Assembly (NCBI RefSeq): GCF_001402945.1
Contig: NZ_LKBG01000264.1
Span: 1 to 32,390, forward strand
Origin: Acidiplasma aeolicum
Lineage (GTDB): Archaea; Thermoplasmatota; Thermoplasmata; Thermoplasmatales; Thermoplasmataceae
Length of the DNA: 32,390 nt
Reading direction: 5' to 3'
This document shows, piece by piece, positions 5,536-12,097 of this stretch (position 1 is the first letter of the stretch; each line of letters starts with the position of its first letter). The position numbers and the translations under genes were made by a program. The notes under the pieces were generated by a model, which was not told the DNA's origin, did no database searches, and saw only the letters and a list, made by a program, of their open reading frames with translations.

Positions 5536-5545
5536 TTTAAATATA
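5536..5545 (+). promoter_or_regulatory. TATA box of the lipA-OADHC-lipB operon
   Basis: TTTAAATATA is centred 26 bases before the lipA ATG, placing the predicted transcription start on the start codon, so the operon message is likely leaderless. Confidence 0.65.
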
Positions 5546-5565
5546 TTTCTGCGATTAATCATATA

Positions 5566-6435
5566 ATGATTAAGGTACCGTACAGTGTGAAACTGCCTTC
5601 TGGCGAGAGATATTCATTTATAAAAAATACATTAAAATCACGTACACTGTATACAGTATGTGAGGAGGCACACTGTCCAAATATGGGGGAATGCTGGGAG
5701 AGTGGTACAGCAACTTTTATGATTCTTGGGTCTAACTGCTCGCGTGGGTGCAGATTCTGTGCGGTTACCCATGGAAAAATGCTACCAATTGATCCAGATG
5801 AACCACAGAAGGTTTATGAGGCTGTAAAATTAATGAGGCTGGATTTTGTTGTCATTACCTCTGTTGACCGTGATGACCTTCCAGATAAGGGGTCACAGGC
5901 TTTTGCCAATGTAATATCTAAACTTAAAACAGCTAATGTTAAAATAGAGGTTTTAATACCAGATTTTAGCGGAATCCATGAGTTTATTGATAAAATAATA
6001 AATGCCGCCCCTGACGTCATTGCACATAATATAGAGACAGTACGCAGGCTTACGCCACACGTAAGGGACCCAAGGGCCGGGTACGATCAGAGCCTAAACG
6101 TTCTTAAATATGTTAAATCCGTTAATAAAAAGATGATTACAAAGTCATCAATAATGATTGGACTTGGAGAGACTGATGAGGAGGTCATTGAGGCCATGAA
6201 GGATCTTAGGAATGCGGGCGTTAACATTTTAACTGTGGGGCAGTATCTAAGGCCAACAAAAAAACAGCTCGAGGTAGTGGAATATTCCCCAATTGAGAGA
6301 TTTAAATATTTCGAGGAAAGTGGATATAAAATGGGTTTTGATTACGTTGCCTCAGGCCCGTTGGTAAGAACATCCTACAGGGCAGCGGAGGCGTACGTAA
6401 AGGGAATGCTGAATGGAGGTGGAAATTATGATTGA
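5566..6435 (+). CDS. lipA: Lipoyl synthase (radical SAM)
   Basis: LipA inserts two sulfurs into protein-bound octanoyl groups. The auxiliary-cluster cysteines are C32, C37 and C43 (CX4CX5C) and the radical-SAM cysteines are C58, C62 and C65 (CSRGCRFC). The C-terminal SGPLVRTSYRA segment corresponds to the conserved R-S-S-Y motif, whose Ser completes the auxiliary cluster; here the first Ser is Thr. At 289 residues it is somewhat shorter than bacterial LipA, with a short N terminus. It is the first gene of the six-gene operon. Its last eight bases overlap the next start (ATGATTGA at 6428-6435), which couples its translation to E1alpha. The target should be the E2 lipoyl domain encoded three genes on. 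Confidence 0.96.
   Translation: MIKVPYSVKLPSGERYSFIKNTLKSRTLYTVCEEAHCPNMGECWESGTATFMILGSNCSRGCRFCAVTHGKMLPIDPDEPQKVYEAVKLMRLDFVVITSVDRDDLPDKGSQAFANVISKLKTANVKIEVLIPDFSGIHEFIDKIINAAPDVIAHNIETVRRLTPHVRDPRAGYDQSLNVLKYVKSVNKKMITKSSIMIGLGETDEEVIEAMKDLRNAGVNILTVGQYLRPTKKQLEVVEYSPIERFKYFEESGYKMGFDYVASGPLVRTSYRAAEAYVKGMLNGGGNYD
6415..6422 (+). promoter_or_regulatory. Shine-Dalgarno site that fixes the E1alpha start
   Basis: GGAGGTGG, inside the end of lipA, lies five bases before the ATG at 6428. The alternative in-frame ATG at 6413 would begin upstream of this site, so 6428 is preferred. Confidence 0.75.
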
Positions 6436-7459
6436 AGAGGCAGATATTAGTAATGAAAAGGTGTTGGAGGCTTACAGGAATCTTGTAATGGAAAGAATGC
6501 TGGATAAAAAGATGCTAAATGCAAGCAGGCAGGGGTTTTTGCCGTTTTACATACCACTGATGGGGCATGAGGCCATACATATTGGTATTGGCCTTGCATT
6601 GAGGAATATTGATTATTTTTATCCATACTACAGGGATTTTGGTGCACTGGTCCAGCTTGGAATTCCCATGGATATGATAATGTCCCAGGTTTTTTCCAAT
6701 GCATCAGATAATGAGCTTGGCAGGGATATGCCGGATCATGTCTCATTTAAAAAATACAATATAGGGGCTGTAATAACACCCGTGGCAGGACACCTCATGT
6801 CGGCTGCCGGAATTGCATATGCAAAGAAATATAGAAAGTCTGATGGAGCGGTATTGACAACCTTTGGAGATGGGGCAACATCAACACCAGATTTCCATGT
6901 TGCAATGAACTTTGCAGGTGTTTATGACCTTCCTATGGTATTTTTGTGTGAAAATAATGGATTTGCAATATCTGTGCCAACATATCCAAATGAGGAGGGG
7001 CAGTCAGATGCATACGAGGAGACAAGAGGCCCAATATATAAAAAGGCGGAGGCCTATGGTTTTGAGGGCATAAGAATTGACGGCACAAGCTTTTTGGAGG
7101 TTTATAAGCAAACAAGAAAGGCGCTTGAAAATGCTTCCAATGGGCCAGTGCTGATAGAGGCAATGACATACAGAATGGGGCCGCACTCCACTGCTGATGA
7201 TCCCAATAAATACAGAAAGGACGAGGTTCCAGAGGGGAGTGATAAGGATCCTCTTATTGTAAACCAGAAAATATTGAAGGACATGGGTATTCTCACGGAG
7301 AAGAAAATTCAGGATATAAACAATGAAATTGATGATTTGACAAGCAAACTTGTAGACAAATATGAAAAAGCACCAAAACCTGATAAAAAAACAATACTGG
7401 ATAATTTATATGAAACAGACCCATGGTATATAACTGAGGAAAGGGGTGATATAGAATGA
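6428..7459 (+). CDS. 2-oxoacid dehydrogenase E1 alpha subunit (branched-chain type)
   Basis: E1alpha, with E1beta, decarboxylates a 2-oxoacid using thiamine diphosphate and passes the acyl group to lipoyl-E2. The ThDP/Mg motif runs from GDG (147-149) to NN (176-177). The loop at 247-263 reads TYRMGPHSTADDPNKYR, closer to the mammalian branched-chain enzyme (GHHSTSDD) than to pyruvate dehydrogenase (HGHSMSDP). The length is 343 residues from the chosen start. The Thermoplasma acidophilum homologues are known to form an active branched-chain 2-oxoacid dehydrogenase complex, so that substrate class (and perhaps pyruvate) is the best inference. It overlaps lipA by 8 bases and E1beta by 4 bases (ATGA). 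Confidence 0.95.
   Translation: MIEEADISNEKVLEAYRNLVMERMLDKKMLNASRQGFLPFYIPLMGHEAIHIGIGLALRNIDYFYPYYRDFGALVQLGIPMDMIMSQVFSNASDNELGRDMPDHVSFKKYNIGAVITPVAGHLMSAAGIAYAKKYRKSDGAVLTTFGDGATSTPDFHVAMNFAGVYDLPMVFLCENNGFAISVPTYPNEEGQSDAYEETRGPIYKKAEAYGFEGIRIDGTSFLEVYKQTRKALENASNGPVLIEAMTYRMGPHSTADDPNKYRKDEVPEGSDKDPLIVNQKILKDMGILTEKKIQDINNEIDDLTSKLVDKYEKAPKPDKKTILDNLYETDPWYITEERGDIE
7443..7450 (+). promoter_or_regulatory. Shine-Dalgarno site of E1beta
   Basis: GGGGTGAT ends five bases before the ATG at 7456, inside the E1alpha coding end. Confidence 0.7.
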
Positions 7460-8424
7460 CCACAATGACAATGGTAAAGGCACTTAACAGTGCGCTTGAC
7501 AATGCAATGGAAAGGGATGATTCAATAATTTTAATGGGAGAGGATGTTGGCGTAGATGGCGGTGTCTTCAGGGTAACTGATGGGCTTCTGGCAAAATATG
7601 GAAAGGAAAGGGTTCTGGATACACCACTTGCAGAACTAGGAATAGTTGGGTTTGGAATTGGAATGTCCATGGCCGGCCTAAAGGCAATACCTGAAATACA
7701 GTTTCAGGATTTTATATACACAGCAATGGATCAGATAATAAACCAGATGGCAAAGCTAAGGTACAGAACCAATGGAGATTACACACTTCCAATGGTTCTT
7801 AGAACACCCTACGCTGGGGGTGTTCACGGCGGGCCCTACCATTCACAGGCTGGAGAGGCATACTTTGCCCACACGCAGGGTTTAACTGTTGTAACACCAT
7901 CAAATCCATATGACGCCAAGGGTTTATTATTATCATCGATAGAGCTTAATGATCCGGTTATATTTTTGGAGCCTAAAAGGCTTTATTATGCAACAAAGGG
8001 GGATGTCCCGGACGATTACTATACAGTTGACCTAAGAAAGGCTAATATTTTAAAGGAGGGTGATGACCTTACAATTATAACATATGGACCAACAGTTCCG
8101 CTTGTCATGGATACTGTAAACAAGAACAATGTAAATGCGGATGTTATTGATTTAAGAACAATAAACCCCTTTGATGTTGATGCCATTTTAAATAGTGTGA
8201 AAAAAACCTCAAGGGCGGTTATAGTTACAGAATCCCCAAGGTTATTTGGCGTAAGTGCTGAAATTTCTGCAACCATAGCGGAAAGGGCAATTGATTATCT
8301 TGCAGCACCAATATTAAGAGTTTCAAGCCTTGATATACCTGTGCCATTCGCGCTTGAGGATTATTATGTGCCAAATGAGCAAAAAATAATGAAAGCAATA
8401 AATAAAGTTTTGCAATACAGGTGA
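7456..8424 (+). CDS. 2-oxoacid dehydrogenase E1 beta subunit
   Basis: The 322-residue transketolase-like beta chain completes the alpha2beta2 E1. It shows the expected features: [15 protein letters not shown] near the N terminus with the ThDP-activating Glu, [17 protein letters not shown], the [16 protein letters not shown] segment, the conserved THPYGGGVHGG-like stretch here reading [36 protein letters not shown], and the C-terminal transketolase domain with [11 protein letters not shown] and VPFA. The family length is about 325. Start and stop overlap the neighbours: ATGA is shared with E1alpha, and its TGA stop lies inside the Shine-Dalgarno site of E2. Alpha and beta are therefore probably made in a fixed ratio. 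Confidence 0.95.
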
Positions 8425-8425
8425 T
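8419..8425 (+). promoter_or_regulatory. Shine-Dalgarno site of E2, overlapping the E1beta stop
   Basis: AGGTGAT contains the E1beta TGA stop (8422-8424) and ends three bases before the E2 ATG at 8429. Confidence 0.7.
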
Positions 8426-8428
8426 GTT

Positions 8429-9598
8429 ATGTATACATTAAAATTACCACCAATCGGCGAGGGGATACAGGAAGGAGAAATAGTAAAATGGGATGTTAAG
8501 GAAGGAGATACCATAAAAAAGGATCAGGACATTGTTGAGGTTATGACTGATAAGATTACTGTGAGAATACCTGCCCCGGTATCAGGAAAGATTTCAAAAA
8601 TTCTGGTTCCAGAGGGCAAAACAGTAAATATCGGTGATCCGATAGTCCAGATAGATTCACCGGATGAATCAAATGAGGTAACCACGGAGAATAAACCAGT
8701 GGAGGAACAGCCAAAAACTGAACAGGTATACTCTGTTAATAATGAGAACATACCGTCTGTGAAGGCCACACCATCTGTAAGGGCCTATGCCAGGTCAAAA
8801 AATGTTGATATATTAAAGGTAAAACCAACCGGTCCTGATGGCAGAATAACAAAGGACGATATTGACGCATACCTTAAAAATACCACTGCGCAGAAAACAG
8901 AGGTAAAAAAACCGGAAAATCCTGCTGCAGGTGATGAAATTTTCAATGTAAGTGGCATCAGAAAGGTAATTTTTGATAAAATGACAAAATCAAAACAGAT
9001 AATGCCACATTTCACTGTAACTGATTTTGTGGAAACCCAGGAAATACAAAAAACCATAGAATATTATGCAAAAAAGGAGTATCTGAGTTTTACGTCATTC
9101 TTTGTTAAGGCATGCACCATTGCATTTAAGGATTTTCCAAAATTAAATGCCATATACAATGAGAATGACAAAAATTATACCATTAAAAAGGCATACAATA
9201 TAGGTGTTGCTGTGGACTCACCGTATGGTTTAACTGTTGTGGTGATAAAGGATGCCGATAAAAAGGATTTGTTTACAATCTCAAAGGAAATTAAGGACCT
9301 TGCTGAAAAGGCCAGAAATAATACACTTACACTGGATGAGGTGCGTGGTTCCACATTTTCAATAACCAATATAGGTGCAATAGGCGGTATTATGTCAACA
9401 CCTGTAATAAATTATCCGGAGGTTGCCATACTTGCAGTAAACTCCAGAACAACAGCAATAATCAACAATGAAATGAAAACAGGTCTGTATCTAACCCTGG
9501 CATGTGATCACAGGTTAATCGACGGTGCTGAGGCGGCCAGATATCTTCAGAGGGTAAAGGAAATACTTGAGCACCCCATGGCATTTATTGGTGATTAA
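8429..9598 (+). CDS. Dihydrolipoamide acyltransferase E2, one lipoyl domain
   Basis: E2 is the core of the complex; it carries acyl groups on a lipoyl arm and transfers them to CoA. Domain order over 389 residues: one lipoyl domain (about 1-78) with the modified Lys in VMTDKIT at K42; a linker rich in Glu, Thr and Pro (about 80-112); a peripheral-subunit-binding domain (about 113-150, [14 protein letters not shown] to [10 protein letters not shown]); a second linker; and the catalytic acyltransferase domain (about 168-389), ending with the active-site motif H361-R-L-I-D365-G366. A single lipoyl domain is usual for branched-chain E2. The K42 site is the presumed substrate of the LipB and LipA encoded at the two ends of this operon. 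Confidence 0.96.
9590..9595 (+). promoter_or_regulatory. Shine-Dalgarno site of E3
   Basis: GGTGAT at the very end of E2 lies five bases before the E3 ATG at 9601, the same register as in E1beta. Confidence 0.65.
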
Positions 9599-9600
9599 AA

Positions 9601-10887
9601 ATGGATTATGAGGTAATAATTCTTGGTGCAGGTGCAGGTGGTTATCTTGCTGCCCTGCATCTGGCCAAAAAAAAGAAAAAGGTTCTTATTATTGAGAAAG
9701 AGAAATTCGGTGGTGAATGCCTAAACTATGGGTGCATACCATCAAAGGCATTAATAGAACTCTCTGAAAATATATTTTACCTAAAAAATATGCCTGGCAT
9801 GACCCTTGATTATAAACTCAACATGAAGGACTGGCAGGCATGGAAAGATTCAATGATAAAGAAAATTACAGGCGGTGCTGAGGGTGCATGCAAGGCCAGC
9901 GGCGCCACTGTGCTTTACGGGGAGGGAAAAATAGTCAATAAAAATACGGTTAATGTAGATGGTAAAAATTATACTGCAGATTATTTAATTCTTGATACCG
10001 GTTCTGTACCTGTAAAAATAAAAGGTATAGATGATGTTTATTATAACCGTGAAATTCTCGCAATAGACCATATACCAGAAACACTTGTTGTTATTGGTGG
10101 CGGTTATATAGGCATTGAGATGGGTACGGCATTCAGGAAACTTGGTTCTGATGTATATATTGTTGAAATGAAGGATAGGATACTTCCTGAGGTTGATGAA
10201 TATCTTTCTAGGGCAGTTGATAAAAGGCTCAGAGATCTTGGAATAAAAATTTTAACCAGTAGCAGGGTTCTTGGTGTGAAAAAGAACAAGAATTATACTG
10301 TAAAAATAGAAAATTCCGGCGATATAATTGCGGAAACCGTTTTAATGGCCGTTGGCAGAATGCCAAATACACAGGGATATGGCCTAGAAAACCTCAATCT
10401 TGAAATGGATGGGCGGTTTATAAAAACGGACCAGCATAAAAGAACAAGTGTGGATAATGTTTATGCCATAGGCGATGTTTCAGGAATGCCCATGCTTGCA
10501 CATAAGGCATTTTATGATGCCTATGTTGCATCTGAAAATATTCTTGGCAATGATACAGTGGTGGATTATAAATCCATGCCAATGGTGGTTTATACAGACC
10601 CGGAAATAGCATTTACAGGTAAAACAACAGATAAATATAAGCAGATACCTGCCATGGCAAATCCCAGAACACTGACAATGAACCAGCAGGATGGCTTCTT
10701 TAGGGTATATTACAATGATGATGGGACAATAAGTGGTGCGGGTATCGCAGCGCCAAGATCCTCAGAGATTATAGCTGAAATTGGGCTGGCCGTTGAATCT
10801 GGTTTAACACTGGATGATATGTTTATGACCGTACATCCCCATCCCACGGTATCTGAGGGCATTAAGGATGCATGCGAAAATGATTAA
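9601..10887 (+). CDS. lpdA: Dihydrolipoamide dehydrogenase E3
   Basis: E3 reoxidises the lipoyl arm with FAD and NAD+. Evidence: an N-terminal FAD Rossmann motif GAGAGG (9-14); a redox disulfide C40/C45 in [13 protein letters not shown]; a second Rossmann motif [10 protein letters not shown] followed by IVE, an acidic residue that favours NAD over NADP; the FAD motif VYAIGDVSG; and the catalytic His-Glu pair H414/E419 in HPHPTVSEG. At 428 residues it is about 30-40 shorter than typical E3, with loops trimmed in the interface domain around [12 protein letters not shown]. It begins two bases after E2, and its last eight bases overlap the lipB start. Confidence 0.96.
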
Positions 10888-11518
10888 TTATTATATTGAT
10901 TTAAAACGCATGGATTATGAGAAATGCCTTCGATTACAGTACCACCTTGTGGAATTAAGAAAAAATGATAAAATACCAAATACCGCACTTTTTGTTGAGC
11001 ATAACAGCATATACACCATAGGAAGAAAGGCAGACCCAAAAAACTATGAAAATGTTAATGTATATAAAACTGACAGGGGTGGCGATGTTACATATCATGG
11101 CCCCGGCCAGATAGTAAATTATTTTATCTTCGATGTAAATATTGATGGCAGGAGGGAAATCAGGAAATTCCTTGAAAATATTGAAAATGCATACATTAAG
11201 ATGCTGGGTTCCTTTGGGTATTCGGCCATGCTGGATGAGGAGCCCGGTATATGGATAGAAACTGAAAAGGGAAAAAAGAAGGTTGCCTCAATTGGACTCG
11301 CAGTAAAAGATAATATTTCATATCACGGTATTGCCCTAAATATAGGACAGGAGGCTGTCAATGGCTTTAATCTAATAAACCCCTGTGGACTTGATAACAG
11401 CGTTATGTCCTATGTTGATATACCAAGAGATAAGGCCATAGAGGCAATAGTTTCGTCACTGGCTGACTACTTTGGGGAATTCCAGAAAATAAATATAGAC
11501 GACATCAAATTATTATAA
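10880..11518 (+). CDS. lipB: Octanoyl/lipoyl-protein transferase
   Basis: LipB moves an octanoyl group onto the lipoyl-domain Lys before LipA adds sulfur. The family signature [14 protein letters not shown] is present, as are the catalytic Lys in KKVASIG (K134) and the catalytic Cys in NPCG. Counting from ATG 10880 that Cys is residue 169, the same number as in E. coli LipB. An in-frame ATG at 10868 would add four residues. I prefer 10880 because the 8-base overlap with the E3 stop (ATGATTAA) mirrors the lipA/E1alpha junction. It is the last gene of the operon. The bacterial donor is octanoyl-ACP; archaea generally lack ACP-based fatty-acid synthesis, so the donor here is unknown. Confidence 0.93.
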
Positions 11519-11563: not shown

Positions 11564-12097
11564 CTATGAGGTTCTTTTAATATCCCAAATTCTCTCCTCA
11601 ATGCCAAGCCTTTTGTTCGATGCAAGTGCATGCATAAAAAGAAGTGATGAAAGTCTGTTTAAATAAATTAAAATATATTTATTTACCTGCATTTTCTTGG
11701 ATACATATACTGCAAGCCTTTCTGTTCTTCTGGCAACGGCCCTTGCCATATGAAGTGAAACTGCGGAAATATCACCATCTGGAACAATAAAAAGGTGTAT
11801 TTTACCAATTTCTTCACGGTATTTTTTCACAGATTCCTCAAGCCACCTTACATCCTCATCCTTAATTGTTCTGTGGGTGCTTTCTGCAGTTATATCCTCA
11901 CCAATAACAAAGATGTCGTTCTGAATTTTTTTTAGATCATTTTTTATGTCTTCCCATTTTGAATTTATGAGGGCAAAACCAACAAATGTGTTTAATTCAT
12001 CAAGGGTTCCCTCGAGGTCCACCATGGGGGAATCCTTACCAACCCTTATTCTCAGGCCGGTATCGGTTTCCCCGGAATCGCCACGTCTTGTAAACAT
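11564..12097 (-). CDS. ATP:cob(I)alamin adenosyltransferase, PduO/MMAB type
   Basis: This enzyme transfers the adenosyl group of ATP to cob(I)alamin to make coenzyme B12. The 177-residue trimer-type protein has the N-terminal ATP motif TRRGDSGETDT, the core VDLEGTLDELNTFVGFA, the conserved RRTER stretch and YLNRLSSLLF near the C terminus. The T. acidophilum homologue (Ta1434) is structurally characterised, and in that genome it lies next to the 2-oxoacid dehydrogenase genes. Here it is convergent with that operon, 45 bases away. An AT-rich TTTAATATT at 12120-12128 is about 27 bases before the ATG, suggesting its own leaderless message. A B12 requirement for methylmalonyl-CoA mutase or ribonucleotide reductase is a plausible use. 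Confidence 0.95.
   Translation of the reverse strand: MFTRRGDSGETDTGLRIRVGKDSPMVDLEGTLDELNTFVGFALINSKWEDIKNDLKKIQNDIFVIGEDITAESTHRTIKDEDVRWLEESVKKYREEIGKIHLFIVPDGDISAVSLHMARAVARRTERLAVYVSKKMQVNKYILIYLNRLSSLLFMHALASNKRLGIEERIWDIKRTS

Follow-up and report, generated by a model that had tools for sequence, protein, structure and literature searches.

A six-gene lipoylation and 2-oxoacid dehydrogenase operon of Acidiplasma aeolicum follows the usual gene order of Thermoplasmatales that have LipA

The DNA analysed here, a stretch of 32,390 nucleotides from the archaeon Acidiplasma aeolicum (contig NZ_LKBG01000264.1, hereafter the window), carries six plus-strand genes at positions 5566-11518 in the order lipA-E1alpha-E1beta-E2-E3-lipB. 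Comparative analysis revealed this gene order to be the norm among Thermoplasmatales that have LipA and to be widespread in the phylum Thermoplasmatota, rather than a peculiarity of A. aeolicum. We are fairly confident that it represents an aerobic-type 2-oxoacid dehydrogenase together with its own cofactor machinery, in which the predicted octanoyltransferase LipB1 would be fed by octanoyl-CoA. All six genes were assigned strongly, with their active-site residues intact. Family searches were run on the source genome (1.78 Mb in 296 contigs, 99% complete) and its relatives. The operon and the convergent neighbour that marks the locus are as follows.

5566-6435, plus strand: lipA, lipoyl synthase, 289 amino acids (TIGR00510 above cut-off, key residues, solved LipA/LIAS homologues)
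6428-7459, plus strand: E1alpha, 2-oxoacid dehydrogenase, 343 amino acids from ATG 6428, with a longer reading from 6413 (PF00676)
7456-8424, plus strand: E1beta, 322 amino acids (PF02779, PF02780)
8429-9598, plus strand: E2, 389 amino acids, with lipoyl domain, E3-binding domain and acyltransferase core (PF00364, PF02817, PF00198)
9601-10887, plus strand: E3, dihydrolipoyl dehydrogenase, 428 amino acids (TIGR01350 above cut-off, redox motif)
10868-11518, plus strand: lipB (LipB1), octanoyltransferase, likely start 10880 (TIGR00214 above cut-off, invariant residues, solved homologues)
11564-12097, minus strand: pduO-type cob(I)yrinate adenosyltransferase, outside the operon (TIGR00636 above cut-off)

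The conservation of the operon was examined across the 117 genomes of the order, of which 85 have LipB and 82 have LipA. For 72 of these 82, lipA and the operon-type lipB share a contig and a strand at a distance of 4.41-4.71 kb; for the other ten, either the two genes fall on different contigs or no operon-type lipB was recovered. Among 36 Thermoplasmatota loci recovered from genome contigs, five start within the operon at a contig end; the other 31, the only ones long enough, all keep the six genes in order. Ferroplasma acidarmanus Fer1 (NC_021592), which belongs to a different genus of the same family in the grouping used, has all six genes arranged likewise (locus L077). The complete order also occurs in other families of the phylum (loci L187, L201, L203 and L204), and loci of family f7 show E1alpha-E1beta-E2-E3-lipB. 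The pduO gene lies downstream of the operon in related loci as well. A chance grouping is excluded because the whole gene order is kept in many genera, and the operon dates far back in the history of the phylum. An earlier reading made from the letters alone (the sequence-only reading) described the arrangement in one archaeon; the comparison shows that it is not special to this organism.

Transfer of the operon from bacteria was considered and rejected: the nearest LipB proteins outside Thermoplasmatota are only about 30-41% identical, their gene order differs, and the trees place no donor. The LipB relatives of Acidobacteriota sit between E3 and E2 genes, and those of other groups lie beside lipA. 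Viral contigs yielded a single weak relative. Two variations were seen in distant loci. The three loci of family f44 (L201, L203 and L204) have the complete six-gene operon, yet their LipB falls far from LipB1 in the tree. Seven f7 loci (L189-L193, L196 and L206) contain about 1.2 kb extra between E2 and E3, which leaves room for another gene.

Pfam assignment revealed a full 2-oxoacid dehydrogenase set in the operon, consisting of E1alpha, E1beta, a lipoylatable E2 with an E3-binding domain and an acyltransferase core, and E3. E1alpha matches PF00676 with 211 bits, and its score on the pyruvate dehydrogenase E1alpha model is under the cut-off. Its closest solved structures are the Thermus 2-oxo acid dehydrogenase and the human branched-chain E1; our guess is that the substrate of the complex is a branched-chain or mixed 2-oxoacid. 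E2 has a single lipoyl domain with the lipoyl lysine at K42, and matches the E2 chains of solved structures, among them a 77-residue lipoyl-domain entry (2l5t). E3 scores 428 bits on TIGR01350 (cut-off 409) and carries the redox motif CLNYGC.

The two cofactor enzymes retain their catalytic residues as well. LipA scores 366 bits on TIGR00510 (cut-off 310) and has all six cluster cysteines, Cys 32/37/43 in a CX4CX5C motif and Cys 58/62/65 in a CX3CX2C motif. At residues 268-271 it has RTSY instead of RSSY, which keeps the serine ligating the auxiliary cluster and is an allowed variant of the motif R(S/T)S(Y/F) (PMC13232139). LipB1 reaches 115.7 bits on TIGR00214 (cut-off 83.55) and contains RGG at 70-72, K138 and C173 (numbering from 10868). 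The catalytic lysine and cysteine, the RGG loop and a conserved threonine and histidine are invariant in 12 LipB1 orthologues, and both LipB1 and LipA strongly resemble homologues of solved structure, those of LipB1 including 2qht and 1w66. The residue check thus agrees with the sequence-only reading on E2 K42, the six LipA cysteines and the Lys/Cys pair of LipB. Its coupled six-gene operon is likewise borne out if E1alpha starts at ATG 6428 and lipB at ATG 10880, which gives an 8-base overlap, a 4-base overlap, a 4-base gap, a 2-base gap and an 8-base overlap from lipA to lipB.

A mechanical list of open reading frames (ORFs) takes earlier ATGs, at 6413 for E1alpha and 10868 for lipB, and gives larger overlaps. 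The start at 6428 is plausible because a Shine-Dalgarno-like GGAGGTGG, resembling a ribosome-binding site, lies 5' of it at 6415-6422; that at 10880 is plausible because it fits the conserved start in the closest orthologues. The six genes are probably co-transcribed, and a candidate promoter precedes lipA.

5536-5545, plus strand: TATA-like TTTAAATATA, putative promoter some 26 bases 5' of the lipA start (ATG 5566), as read from the sequence

The position of TTTAAATATA is consistent with a leaderless transcript start of lipA.

Octanoyl-CoA is most likely the physiological octanoyl donor of LipB1, because no acyl carrier protein (ACP) is detectable and E. coli LipB prefers octanoyl-CoA (C8-CoA). 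No ACP (PF00550) scored above the cut-off in A. aeolicum or 25 relatives, with 11 of 14 control genomes positive, nor was any true ketoacyl synthase (PF00109) found, all matches spanning only short parts of the model. Three PF00109 matches of A. aeolicum were rejected as ketoacyl synthases: they sit in thiolase-type ORFs, one of them a Pfam-confirmed thiolase. The ACP-less genome expected in the sequence-only reading was therefore found within the limits of the models, as was the lack of the ACP/fatty-acid synthase set that it had named as counter-evidence. E. coli LipB uses octanoyl-CoA in preference to octanoyl-ACP (C8-ACP) and recognises mainly the phosphopantetheine arm of its donor, and mouse LipT2 accepts C8-CoA (PMC9307952); the RGG loop and the lysine implicated in that work are invariant in the LipB1 orthologues. 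One of the beta-oxidation clusters in the genome (L160, 4316-11172) contains two acyl-CoA dehydrogenases along with a fatty acyl-CoA ligase, a thiolase and a 3-hydroxyacyl-CoA dehydrogenase/enoyl-CoA hydratase. The A. aeolicum acyl-CoA ligase scores above the long-chain fatty-acid-CoA ligase cut-off, and the genome has seven acyl-CoA dehydrogenase matches.

We propose that octanoyl-CoA would arise from free octanoate via the acyl-CoA ligase, as an intermediate of beta-oxidation, or both. LipB1 would then move the octanoyl group to E2 K42 through a Lys138/Cys173 acyl-enzyme, after which LipA would put two sulfurs into the octanoyl chain bound on E2, and the lipoylated E1-E2-E3 complex could oxidise a 2-oxoacid.

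Several points weigh against octanoyl-CoA as the donor. An ACP too divergent for PF00550 would escape the search, which did not extend to the phosphopantetheinyl transferase family. C8-CoA is a poor substrate for B. subtilis LipM (cited in PMC9307952), so one member's donor preference need not hold for the rest of the superfamily. Moreover, the literature search found no biochemical assay of an archaeal LipB. The octanoyl group might instead be presented on an unrecognised carrier, such as an ACP of divergent sequence or some different carrier of the phosphopantetheine or thiol type like coenzyme M. Canonical bacterial LipB is described with octanoyl-ACP, and Tanabe 2023 (PMC10332631) reports LipB and LipA from archaea, where ACP is as a rule missing, and names coenzymes A or M as possible donors. 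However, we consider such a carrier unlikely, given the empty PF00550 search over 26 genomes with its mostly positive controls and the behaviour of E. coli LipB, which recognises chiefly the phosphopantetheine arm and favours C8-CoA. The donor was an open question in the sequence-only reading; it is indeed a published puzzle (PMC10332631), but the donor preference of E. coli LipB makes it a narrower one.

Comparison with Thermoplasma pointed to a different route to lipoylation there. LipA and LipB are absent from all five genomes of this genus (g15). In one of them (G099), lplA and lplB, the genes of the bipartite lipoate ligase, adjoin each other, and the LplA encoded there scores 532 bits against the LplA structure of T. 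acidophilum. The dehydrogenase locus of G099 shares with A. aeolicum the E1alpha-E1beta-E2-E3 order and the convergent pduO, but has no lipA 5' and no lipB 3'. By contrast, the A. aeolicum genome has no match to LplB (Lip_prot_lig_C, PF10437), which G099 possesses. Its only two proteins of the LplA/LipB fold (PF21948) both score above the LipB equivalog cut-off, and neither is a LipM-type transferase distinct from LipB; a route other than the Thermoplasma ligase, as the sequence-only reading had suspected, is thus upheld. The lipoyl synthases LipS1/LipS2 perform the same sulfur insertion as LipA. LipS2 is found in other families of the order, and in A. aeolicum no LipS2 match exceeds the cut-off of 270, LipS1 not having been searched separately; a weak LipS2 match of 28.7 bits was discarded as a cross-match to LipA itself. 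The ACP, LplA/LplB and LipS2 searches that the sequence-only reading had proposed thus returned no ACP, LplB or LipS2 above cut-off.

These comparisons suggest that Thermoplasma lost lipA and lipB and replaced them by the scavenging ligase LplA/LplB; loss is the simpler reading because the operon is present elsewhere in the family and the phylum. Given this scavenging by Thermoplasma, and the acyl-CoA ligases in the A. aeolicum genome, LipB1 or LipB2 (a second LipB, described below) could conceivably transfer lipoyl from lipoyl-CoA, the product of such a ligase, rather than octanoyl. We regard this kind of salvage as very improbable, since LipA is intact and retained in the operon with LipB1, whereas the LplA-bearing genomes of the order lack LipA.

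The claim that lipoylation here is self-contained stands only in part. It is true that lipA, lipB and the E1-E3 genes share one operon, but this is only part of the lipoylation system: another LipB and two more lipoyl acceptors are encoded elsewhere in the genome.

L044 (G000:C231) 8359-8997, minus strand: LipB2, TIGR00214 136.1 bits against a cut-off of 83.55, outside the operon

At least two LipB matches occur in 77 of the 85 LipB genomes, a few of them pieces of one gene. In two Thermoplasmatales families, almost all genomes with LipA have a second, distinct LipB. Phylum-wide, two copies were found only in these two families, with one exception genome whose match includes a contig-end piece. 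The lysine, the cysteine and RGG are kept in all eight LipB2 sequences. In a quick tree, LipB1 and LipB2 fall into groups of their own, with support of 100 and 99, that are neighbours at moderate support (88), and a broader tree did not reject the two as one clade (p-AU 0.96), the rooting being uncertain because LipB1-type patterns were used to collect the bacterial sequences. The LipB2 gene adjoins an aminotransferase-like gene in the A. aeolicum genus and, in five other genera, a gene whose product reads by eye as an aldehyde dehydrogenase, with no obvious tie.

The three lipoyl acceptors of the A. aeolicum genome are the operon E2, GcvH and a 78-residue lipoyl protein, and a single LipA match would serve all of them. 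The 78-residue protein belongs to a second, split cluster resembling 2-oxoacid/acetoin dehydrogenase (L162, G000:C89, 5663-9472), along with a fused E1alpha-E1beta (678 residues), an E2 core without lipoyl domain (261 residues) and an alpha/beta hydrolase; short lipoyl/biotin-domain proteins are present in three relatives as well. As an extension of the octanoyl-CoA reading rather than a strict rival, LipB1 may modify the operon E2 and LipB2 may modify GcvH and/or the 78-residue protein. Such a division of labour is suggested by the two LipB copies per genome in both LipA-keeping families, by the location of LipB1 in the dehydrogenase operon and LipB2 elsewhere, by their well-supported separate groups, and by the three acceptors set against one LipA. 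However, LipB2 adjoined neither gcvH nor the standalone lipoyl protein in the ten loci examined, and the E. coli enzyme acts on several targets. Nor does the joint presence of LipB2 and GcvH discriminate target specificity, because GcvH is nearly universal across the genomes searched. We therefore hold the division of labour as tentatively plausible.

Two further genes of the window deserve mention. The folP gene (dihydropteroate synthase, TIGR01496; 4517-5512, plus strand) stops 53 bases short of lipA, and this neighbourhood is confined to Ferroplasma and its near relatives. A FeS-assembly protein (PF01883; 24300-24632, plus strand) is encoded 13 kb away, and is a putative iron-sulfur source for LipA.

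Compared to the E. coli LipB/LipA pathway, A. aeolicum has all the catalytic residues of LipB and LipA and the lipoyl lysine of E2, but differs in having no detected ACP or fatty acid synthase and in placing the lip genes within the dehydrogenase operon; in E. coli K-12, a single gene separates lipB from lipA. Nothing essential separates A. aeolicum from the archaeal LipA-LipB system exemplified by F. acidarmanus, in which LipB, LipA and E2 likewise share one genome. Borziak et al. 2014 (PMC3904984) reported LipB, LipA and E2 together in nine archaea, with the F. acidarmanus LipB S0AQU0 as a query. Archaeal co-occurrence of these proteins and the missing ACP donor are thus already known. No description of the operon order, of the Thermoplasma comparison locus or of a second LipB was found in the parts of these two papers that were consulted. 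The present analysis adds genome-wide negative evidence, conservation depth, a Thermoplasma locus for comparison and the second LipB.

Taken as a whole, an ACP-free lipoylation fed by beta-oxidation-type octanoyl-CoA, with old paralogues LipB1 acting on E2 and LipB2 on GcvH and the standalone lipoyl protein, and with a change to scavenging in Thermoplasma after the loss of both paralogues, is a combination that we advance with still more reserve than the division of labour itself. Archaeal LipB without ACP, a puzzle raised in PMC10332631, is now directly testable in a group with a sequenced reference strain, F. acidarmanus. The likely donor is narrowed to octanoyl-CoA, and the group offers two LipB paralogues and a Thermoplasma locus that lacks lipA and lipB beside the same pduO neighbour.

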